DNA of 64,000 nt, from positions 186,001 to 250,000 of the forward strand of contig NZ_MWQK01000003.1 in assembly GCF_002210425.1 (NCBI RefSeq), given 5' to 3'. Both the position numbers and the translations under genes were made by a program. The notes below the pieces were generated by a model that worked only from the letters and a program-made list of their open reading frames with translations, made no database searches and was not told the origin of the DNA. This document shows positions 18,312-21,393 of this stretch, in pieces. This DNA comes from Fibrobacter sp. UWB2 (lineage in GTDB: Bacteria > Fibrobacterota > Fibrobacteria > Fibrobacterales > Fibrobacteraceae). The stretch's first letter is position 1. Each line of letters opens with the position of its first letter.

Positions 18312-21300
18312 ATGAAATCCAAATTACTCTTAACAACATCTATCTTCACACTTTCCATGCTTTACGGCTGCCTCGACGAGGTGAGTGAAGCAAGCGCCCC
18401 GGACTTGTCCGAACTCGCCTGCAAAACAGAACCGCTAGACGACGATAGTGGTCTCAAGGTTATCTGCGGCGGGGATTCCGTAGGTGTCGTTTTAAACGGC
18501 AAAGACGGAAAAGATGGAGCCGATGGTAAAGATGGCGAAGATGGCAAGGAAGGCAAATCTGGAGCCGACGGCAAAGACGGATCATCCTGCTACGTCACCG
18601 AAAACGCAGAAATCAACGGCTACGACGTGTTCTGCGGCGATGAAAAAATCGGTTCTATCGTAAATGGCAAGGATGGTGCCGACGGTAAAAATGGTGAAAA
18701 CGGCGCCAACGGTAAGGATGGCGACAAGGGTGACGATGGCAAGGACGGTAAAGACGGAAAAGATGGAACTTCTTGCAAAGTCGAAGTGAACAAGGAAATC
18801 GATGGTTACGACGTTATATGCGGCGACAAGAAAGTTGGTCAGCTCCTTAATGGAAAGGATGGCGAAAACGGCAAGGATGGTAAAGATGGCAACGACGGTT
18901 CCTCTTGCTCGGTCGAAGTAAACGATGATATCGATGGTTACGACGTCATCTGCGGTAACAAGAAAGTCGGAGAAATTCACAACGGTAAAAACGGCCAGGA
19001 TGGAAAGAACGGCATTGACGGTAAAGACGGAACGTCCTGCTCTGTCGTAAAGAACGAAAAAATCAATGGATACGAAGTCTACTGCGGTACCGAATTCCTC
19101 GGATTCCTCACTAACGGCAAGGACGGCCAAGACGGAAAGAATGGTACCGATGGTAAGGACGGCAACGATGGCACTTCTTGCCGTGTCGAAGTGAACAAGG
19201 AAATCAACGGTTACGACGTCGTTTGCGCAGGCAAGAAGGTCGGTGAACTCTATAACGGAAAGGATGGCGCTGATGGCAAGAACGGTACCAACGGTAAGGA
19301 CGGAACTTCCTGCAGCGTTGTAGAAAATAAGGATATTAACGGTTTCGACGTCATCTGTGGCGACAAGAAGGTCGGCGAGCTCCTCAACGGAAAGGATGGC
19401 GCTGACGGAAAGAACGGTACTGATGGTAAAGACGGAACTTCTTGCAGCGTTGAAGAGAACAAGGAAATCGATGGTTACGACGTTATATGCGGCGACAAGA
19501 AAGTGGGTCAGCTCCTTAATGGAAAGGATGGCGAAAACGGCAAGGACGGAAAGAATGGCACCGATGGTAAAGATGGAACGTCCTGCTCTGTCGTAAAGAA
19601 CGAAAAGGTCAATGGATACGAAGTCTACTGCGGTACCGAATTCCTCGGATTCCTCACTAACGGAAAGGATGGCGCTGATGGCAAGAACGGTACCAACGGT
19701 AAGGACGGAACTTCCTGCAGCGTTGTAGAAAATAAGGATATTAACGGTTTCGACGTTATCTGTGGCGACAAGAAGGTCGGTGAACTTCGCAACGGTAAGG
19801 ACGGCCAAGATGGTAAGAATGGTACTGATGGTAAAGACGGAACTTCTTGCCGTGTCGAAGTGAACAAGGAAATCAATGGTTACGATGTTATCTGCGGCGA
19901 CAAGAAAGTTGGTCAGCTCCTTAATGGAAAGGATGGCGAAAACGGCAAGGATGGTAAAGATGGCAACGACGGTTCTTCCTGCACGGTCGAAGTAAACGAT
20001 GACATCAATGGTTTCGACGTCGTTTGCGCAGGCAAGAAGGTCGGTGAGCTCCGCAACGGTAAGGACGGCCAAGACGGAAAGAACGGCACTGATGGTAAGG
20101 ATGGAACGTCCTGCTCTGTCGTAAAGAACGAAAAAGTCAATGGATACGAAGTCTACTGCGGTACCGAATTCCTCGGATTCCTCACTAACGGCAAGGATGG
20201 CGCGGATGGCAAGAACGGTATCGACGGTAAGGACGGAACTTCTTGCACTGTTGAAGAGAACAAGGAAATCGACGGATACGATGTCATCTGCGGTGACAAG
20301 AAGGTCGGTGAACTCCGCAACGGTAAGGACGCAGTCCTTCCTTCCTCCAGCAGCATCGCTTCTTCAAGCAGTGCAGCACCTTCTAGCAGCAGCAAGGTTT
20401 CCTCTAGCAGTGTCACACCGTCTAGCAGCAGCGTAGCATCCTCTAGTAGCGTAACGCCCTCCAGTAGCAGCGTCGTTTCCTCTAGCAGCGAAACCCCGTC
20501 TAGCTCCAGCGTTGAACAGCTCAGCGAAAAGTGCAAAACGCTCCGTGCCACAACAGACGTATTCAATTCCCTCTACGACGTTCTCGGCTGCACCCGCTCT
20601 GACGAAAAAGTCGCCATCATCTTGCGCCACGCCCAACGCGACATCAACAAATACGGCGACGACGACGGCCTCATTGACGTCGGTAGAGCACAGGCAAAGC
20701 AAGTCGGCGAAAAACTCAAAAAGCTCAACCTCGACGACTTCTATTACATGTACACCAACGTCAAGCGCACCGCAGAAACCGCACAAATCATCGCCGTGAA
20801 CAAAGGCGAAAACGTTTCGTCAAACATCAACGACTGGCACAAGCATAGCATCGAAAACCTTACTGAAATCAACCAGAACCTGAAGGAATCCTGGTATGTC
20901 AAACCCAATCAAAGTGCAAACAACTGCAAGGGTAACGCCAGCTGGGGCTGGAGTTCTTATTCCAAAATTGCCTACCAGGAATACGACAACGATAACAACC
21001 GTCAAAACTGCGAAAACGCATTCTACCCCATCGACACAAGAATCGAAGCATTCATCGAAAACTACTTCACATACGAACAAATGCACAAGTACACCTTGGC
21101 CATTTCGCATGACCAGTACCTTGTGCCGTTTGTCGTTACAATCAGCAACAAACAAATCCACGACGACGTTAAAAATTCCAAATACGATCTCCGCTTCCAC
21201 AAGCATGATCGCGACATCAATTGGAATCCGGATTTTAACTATTGGATTAACTACCTCACCGGTGTAGTCCTCATCGTTGATTCCGAAAACAACGTTATAA

Positions 21301-21356
21301 AGCTCCCCGTCAAAGCACTAGACGACGGATTCCTGCGTGAATACAAAAATCCATAA
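18312..21356 (+). CDS. Giant lipoprotein: collagen-like cassettes, Ser-rich linker, histidine phosphatase
   Basis: A 1014-residue exported lipoprotein (lipobox LYGC, Cys20). Residues 37-675 hold 14 tandem cassettes. Each has a small globular part with two cysteines (pattern SC-V--N--I-GYDV-CG-KKVG-L) and a collagen-like Gly-X-Y run of NGKDG-type triplets. The first cassette is degenerate. A Ser-rich linker (about 677-735) follows, then a histidine phosphatase domain (about 760-1010) with LRHAQRD, VKRTAETA and a second catalytic histidine in ISHDQ. The active-site set looks complete, although the usual RHG is RHA. The protein probably displays a phosphatase on a stiff stalk outside the cell; the substrate is unknown. 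The gene stands alone with its own terminator. Confidence 0.85.
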   Translation: MKSKLLLTTSIFTLSMLYGCLDEVSEASAPDLSELACKTEPLDDDSGLKVICGGDSVGVVLNGKDGKDGADGKDGEDGKEGKSGADGKDGSSCYVTENAEINGYDVFCGDEKIGSIVNGKDGADGKNGENGANGKDGDKGDDGKDGKDGKDGTSCKVEVNKEIDGYDVICGDKKVGQLLNGKDGENGKDGKDGNDGSSCSVEVNDDIDGYDVICGNKKVGEIHNGKNGQDGKNGIDGKDGTSCSVVKNEKINGYEVYCGTEFLGFLTNGKDGQDGKNGTDGKDGNDGTSCRVEVNKEINGYDVVCAGKKVGELYNGKDGADGKNGTNGKDGTSCSVVENKDINGFDVICGDKKVGELLNGKDGADGKNGTDGKDGTSCSVEENKEIDGYDVICGDKKVGQLLNGKDGENGKDGKNGTDGKDGTSCSVVKNEKVNGYEVYCGTEFLGFLTNGKDGADGKNGTNGKDGTSCSVVENKDINGFDVICGDKKVGELRNGKDGQDGKNGTDGKDGTSCRVEVNKEINGYDVICGDKKVGQLLNGKDGENGKDGKDGNDGSSCTVEVNDDINGFDVVCAGKKVGELRNGKDGQDGKNGTDGKDGTSCSVVKNEKVNGYEVYCGTEFLGFLTNGKDGADGKNGIDGKDGTSCTVEENKEIDGYDVICGDKKVGELRNGKDAVLPSSSSIASSSSAAPSSSSKVSSSSVTPSSSSVASSSSVTPSSSSVVSSSSETPSSSSVEQLSEKCKTLRATTDVFNSLYDVLGCTRSDEKVAIILRHAQRDINKYGDDDGLIDVGRAQAKQVGEKLKKLNLDDFYYMYTNVKRTAETAQIIAVNKGENVSSNINDWHKHSIENLTEINQNLKESWYVKPNQSANNCKGNASWGWSSYSKIAYQEYDNDNNRQNCENAFYPIDTRIEAFIENYFTYEQMHKYTLAISHDQYLVPFVVTISNKQIHDDVKNSKYDLRFHKHDRDINWNPDFNYWINYLTGVVLIVDSENNVIKLPVKALDDGFLREYKNP
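18497..20335 (+). repeat. Tandem coding repeat (collagen-like cassettes, about 130-160 bp units)
   Basis: Units share near-identical DNA over long stretches. For example the segment near 18780-18960 is almost repeated at 19858-20010, and the EFLGFLT-type unit recurs near 19080, 19620 and 20155. This indicates recent segmental duplication and likely length variation between strains. Confidence 0.85.
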
Positions 21357-21368
21357 CAAACAAGCTTC

Positions 21369-21393
21369 AAAGCCCCCGCCTGGGGGCTTTTTT
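21369..21393 (+). terminator. Rho-independent terminator of the collagen-like gene
   Basis: AAAGCCCCC pairs with GGGGGCTTT, followed by T residues. It directly abuts the -10 element of the next gene. Confidence 0.85.

Follow-up and report, generated by a model that had tools for sequence, protein, structure and literature searches.

In the window analysed here, a stretch of 64,000 nucleotides from Fibrobacter sp. UWB2, we identified a 1014-aa open reading frame whose product we read, with a probability of about 0.6, as an outer-envelope lipoprotein with an active histidine phosphatase displayed at the tip of a long arm of variable length. Each of its parts is of a known kind, but their order and the beaded arm appear to be undescribed. 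In keeping with the first-pass annotation, our literature search, which was incomplete, returned no paper with this order, and it found nothing on a fusion of collagen with histidine phosphatase or on any histidine phosphatase of Fibrobacter; the main texts of the proteomic and genome papers on strain S85 mention neither collagen nor phosphatase. Fibrobacter is a major degrader of fibre in the rumen, and in this protein a conserved phosphatase is linked with a collagen-like arm for display.

Architecture of the gene

The features of the locus, in window positions, are the following.

18312-21356, + strand: whole gene of the 1014-aa collagen-armed histidine-phosphatase lipoprotein, an open frame whose orthologs share the domain order
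18312-18371, + strand: putative lipoprotein signal peptide with the lipobox LYG-C20 at its end, read from the translation; close orthologs have a lipobox-like start
18420-18497, + strand: degenerate first two-Cys unit, aa 37-62; orthologs have an equivalent N-terminal unit
18498-20324, + strand: 13 Gly-X-Y runs alternating with 13 two-Cys mini-domains, aa 63-671, in units of 132 or 141 bp
20342-20507, + strand: Ser-rich linker, aa ~677-732, with 39-bp repeats
20508-21353, + strand: predicted histidine phosphatase head, aa 733-1014 (PF00300, E=1.1e-8; AlphaFold2; conserved columns)
20625-20639, + strand: RHAQR motif with R772, H773 (predicted phosphohistidine nucleophile) and R776; these three residues are the same in all 49 domains
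20766-20768, + strand: R819, second Arg of the phosphate pocket, invariant in 49 domains
21105-21113, + strand: SHD motif with S932, H933 (second pocket His) and D934 (candidate proton donor); the latter two residues never vary in the 49 domains
21369-21390, + strand: intrinsic-terminator-like stem-loop with a T run, directly 3′ of the stop codon
17920-18204, − strand: divergent 94-aa small lipoprotein-like ORF (tblastn, 45-87% identity at 8 orthologous loci)

Both hallmarks of a bacterial lipoprotein, a signal peptide (MKSKLLLTTSIFTLSMLYG-C20) and a lipobox cysteine, can be read from the translation, as had been proposed on the first reading: the lipobox ends in ...MLYGC, its Cys20 is the first cysteine of the protein, and by this motif Cys20 would be lipidated. 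The stop codon is followed by a hairpin that resembles a terminator, which makes a monocistronic gene probable. An antisense ORF at 18582-20072 was set aside as a by-product of the repeat.

Between the signal peptide and the linker lies a tandem array with a unit of 132 bp and a higher-order period of 264 bp, which translates into cassettes of 44 or 47 aa. The first-pass annotation had counted fourteen cassettes, and this number stands for the two-Cys units: there are 14 of the form C-x(14)-C, from aa 37-53 through 645-661, the first of them degenerate (CKTEPLDDDSGLKVIC). The collagen-like runs number 13 instead, the last two-Cys unit having no Gly-X-Y run after it. These runs comprise 5-11 triplets each and 77 triplets in total, mostly GKD, GKN and GAD with GKD dominant, and just two prolines occur in aa 24-670. 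The 1014-aa protein matches the Pfam Collagen profile at E=2e-29, and the Ser-rich linker precedes the phosphatase as described. Matches of the repeats to the CBM53 and Laterosporulin profiles lay below the cut-off and were rejected. Since orthologs in more than 20 genomes share the domain order, it is, judged from these sequences, not a product of chance.

The phosphatase head

The head matches His_Phos_1 (PF00300) at E=1.3e-7 within the whole protein and at E=1.1e-8 when the C-terminal part is searched alone. Its catalytic set is complete, as had been claimed: the N-terminal RH(x)xR motif of the histidine phosphatase superfamily (R772-H773-xx-R776), the second Arg (R819) and the second His of the phosphate pocket with its neighbour (H933-D934) are all present, and the corresponding positions R40, H41, R44, R87, H201 and D202 of the domain are invariant in 49/49 domains. 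The AlphaFold2 model has the alpha/beta fold of the superfamily (pLDDT 95.4, pTM 0.93) and 127 PDB matches at E<=0.001, with PGAM5 and RosC at the top. Foldseek and profile searches both led to branch-1 enzymes (PGAM5, RosC, PhoE-type and phosphoserine phosphatase), at low identity. In comparisons with close orthologs, dN/dS of the head is 0.09-0.13, and the head is under purifying selection.

By its modelled fold and profile matches, the head is a branch-1 histidine phosphatase (PF00300; PGAM5, RosC, PhoE/YhfR, PspA, PmrG), with which it has the RH..R motif, the second Arg, the second His and the fold in common. It departs from this branch in its SHD motif, since the usual branch-1 motif is of the SHG or SHA type, in additional segments that precede the core or lie within it, and in four clade-specific cysteines (C741, C760, C872 and C900) that are conserved in its clade. 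The protein as a whole differs from branch-1 enzymes in being, by its lipobox, an extracytoplasmic lipoprotein, and its identity to solved structures is ~15%. None of the NCBIfam equivalog cut-offs was reached by the head. Its single likeness to the histidine acid phytases of branch 2 is the C-terminal HD, of which both residues are invariant; the branch-2 profile PF00328 gave no match in the Pfam scan, and the motif reads RHAQRDI as against RHGxRxP in branch 2. In branch-2 phytases, the Asp of the HD motif is the proton donor (PMC3669009), and by analogy D934 may play this part here.

Distribution and kinship

What had been taken for an exceptional protein belongs to a family of the Fibrobacteraceae. 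In a phylum sample of 151 genomes, with five candidates scored per genome, so that genome counts are lower bounds, the order of arm and phosphatase was found in at least 23 of the 67 sampled Fibrobacter genomes (UWB2 included) and in one other genus of the Fibrobacteraceae. Armed members carry 4-14 two-Cys units. When 84,980 species genomes were scanned for the head family of this phosphatase, 35 loci came up, 34 of them in Fibrobacterota. The remaining one (L105:4908-5681), in a MAG from the rumen that is filed as Bacteroidales, encodes a short lipoprotein with a phosphatase domain of this family; this copy would stem from horizontal transfer or deep kinship, or from an error in binning. The phosphatase profile found no relative among viral contigs, and the whole protein had no match among plasmids. 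By the names of the collections, the closest relatives come from Fibrobacter succinogenes-type rumen MAGs.

The tree of the heads comprises two main clades, one holding all collagen-armed domains and the other never collagen-armed. Some members of the armed clade have Ser linkers in place of arms; arms have therefore been lost or swapped. Around close orthologs, the flanks are identical in kind, with a GGDEF-EAL gene and a MoxR ATPase gene, and the 94-aa ORF on the minus strand, which has no Pfam match, stays beside the gene.

The UWB2 genome encodes six more lipoproteins with the phosphatase domain, on stalks that are Ser-rich or consist of other N-terminal regions; the genes of two such lipoproteins (L006 and L008) adjoin each other. 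An eighth, divergent copy of the domain was detected by profile search (L133, G000:C9:8870-9553, − strand, E=4e-28). Elsewhere, yak, rumen and other Fibrobacter MAGs contain tandem sets of 3-5 phosphatase-headed lipoprotein genes (L098:1134-8889, L099:1122-10468, L100:1098-8829 and L101:171-5666). That UWB2 has eight copies of the domain, and that other genomes have up to five such lipoprotein genes in tandem, points to an unrecognised phosphate chemistry on the Fibrobacter surface.

Structure of the arm and function of the head

AlphaFold2 models a pair of cassettes with moderate confidence (pLDDT 75, pTM 0.36); in this model, the mini-domain is a three-stranded meander with strands at residues 7-12, 17-22 and 25-31, and Cys7 faces Cys22 across one hairpin, a pairing read from the strand limits of the model. 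Both cysteines are kept in 260 of the 262 units scored with Cys masked during the search, these units coming from targets picked for having two-Cys units or collagen runs. Because the two cysteines stand cross-strand in one hairpin and nearly all units retain both, one intrachain disulfide per bead is more likely than interchain bonds, and the earlier proposal that cysteines between collagen segments lock the chains together is disfavoured. Covariation of the cysteines is uninformative, both being almost always there. A PDB search with the cassette profile gave nothing significant.

Across the family, the length of the Gly-X-Y segments, taken from the conserved NG up to the following Cys, varies between 9 and 78 residues and is a multiple of three in 205 of 215 of them, which, together with the 13 runs and the Pfam score reported above, upholds the view of the arm as collagen-like. 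Such a kept triplet phase is what an in-register triple helix would demand, though 9-bp slippage without selection could yield the same. A doubtful but sensible alternative, which we rank clearly behind the trimeric stalk, is that the arm is a monomeric, flexible string of disulfide-closed beads with disordered Gly-rich linkers and no triple helix, so that the head would be a tethered, single-copy phosphatase. It would explain why the monomer model scores a pLDDT <50 over its Gly-X-Y part and why plain Ser-rich linkers replace the arm in some family members, and most runs here, with 5-6 triplets and almost no proline, may be too weak to hold a triple helix together at the temperature of the rumen. 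Yet the conserved phase and the strong collagen scores exceed what a flexible linker needs, and the Gly-X-Y segments of other members are longer. With the collagen geometry of ~0.29 nm per residue, 77 fully helical triplets would span ~66 nm, to which 14 beads would be added, a length beyond the width of the periplasm. If the arm is trimeric, it would be a natural design of use in protein engineering, with triple helices that are short, have almost no proline and carry disulfide mini-domains as caps.

The first-pass annotation had joined interchain disulfides, locking three chains, to a phytase-like head that frees phosphate from plant phytate. The many cysteines beside the collagen runs invite this idea, as does the SHD motif in recalling the branch-2 HD; we consider it highly improbable, given the cross-strand position of both cysteines, the branch-1 family and fold of the head, and a separate branch-2 histidine phosphatase in 13 of 13 sampled Fibrobacter genomes, the last two of which leave phytate as the substrate unsupported. 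Rather unlikely, but far less so, is an action on the envelope polymers of the cell itself, such as phosphorylated lipopolysaccharide or slime polysaccharide, in the manner of the periplasmic heptose-phosphate phosphatase PmrG/Ais. Short-anchored paralogs would fit such a role, and the PmrG profile matches the head at E=9.5e-7, which is far below its curated cut-off and no better than the scores of several other branch-1 families; moreover, the own membrane of the cell could be reached without a stalk of tens of nanometres. On the best reading, the displayed phosphatase would have its substrates among envelope polymers or among phosphate esters found outside the cell.

The displayed, stalked phosphatase that we favour would work as follows, with lipidation, surface position, trimerization, catalysis and substrate each inferred. 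Lipidated Cys20 would anchor the protein, and its 14 three-stranded beta mini-domains would each probably be closed by their own intrachain disulfide. The Gly-X-Y runs of three chains would most likely come together as short collagen triple helices. The resulting trimeric stalk would be beaded and, in very rough terms, 70-100 nm long, and at its end the Ser-rich linker would set the C-terminal head free. The head would cleave phosphomonoesters by the phosphohistidine mechanism of the superfamily, as its invariant residues suggest, with H773 as the nucleophile, R772, R776, R819 and H933 as the phosphate pocket and D934 as the likely proton donor. The job of the arm would be to carry the head through the glycocalyx towards a solid substrate or neighbours, and the head would most likely be used on extracellular phosphate that is organic or bound to polymers.

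Other heads on the arm and known collagen-like systems

Further proteins with the mini-domain, for which the first reading had suggested a search, occur in the same genome: two lipoproteins (L002 and L004) combine a lipoprotein start and a two-Cys/collagen arm with C-terminal Fib_succ_major (PF09603) domains, and a third protein (L010) bears another head on a related arm. Fibrobacter succinogenes major domain lipoproteins (PF09603/TIGR02145) thus share the arm and the lipoprotein start with the protein studied here and differ from it in their non-enzymatic head. Because Fib_succ_major heads ride on equal arms, the arm is, to judge from these genes, a general Fibrobacter display module, and the same arm type bears different heads. 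Tentatively, we go one step further and suggest that interchangeable beaded collagen arms, their length varied by recombination, may be a Fibrobacter means of surface display, in which one lineage would consist of three-headed ecto-phosphatases held tens of nm out.

Legionella Lcl, which forms lollipop-shaped trimers, is a precedent for a trimeric head borne on a collagen stalk at a Gram-negative surface (PMC11162425). The Fibrobacter protein resembles Lcl (PF07603 head; PMC11162425) in its collagen-like stalk, its C-terminal head and its Gram-negative cell, and heads related to that of Lcl (Fib_succ_major/Lcl_C) ride on two-Cys/collagen arms in the same genome. In Lcl, by contrast, the head binds carbohydrate and an amphipathic helix serves as the anchor; the Fibrobacter protein has a phosphatase head, a putative lipid anchor and two-Cys mini-domains that interrupt the collagen. 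The streptococcal Scl/SclB adhesins (NF038329, profile E=1e-23) are similar in their Lys/Asp-rich, Pro-poor triplets of the GKD type and differ in having an LPXTG anchor and another head; the Fibrobacter protein has no LPXTG, contains mini-domain insertions and, at 84 bits against a curated cut-off of 325, falls outside this family.

Some arms vary further in composition. Those of three armed orthologs (L083, L085 and L086) and of L010 contain KSAYEIAKDNGFTGTEKEWLESLKG-type inserts between the collagen runs, which we take to resemble inserts of phage tail-fibre proteins; a PDB search with such an insert from other family members (SAYEAA...GTEEEW) gave nothing. A further locus (L071) holds three genes in which the two-Cys/collagen arm is combined with Fib_succ_major and other heads, and one arm protein with a Fib_succ_major head has, in addition, a weak match to the Lcl_C domain of Legionella.
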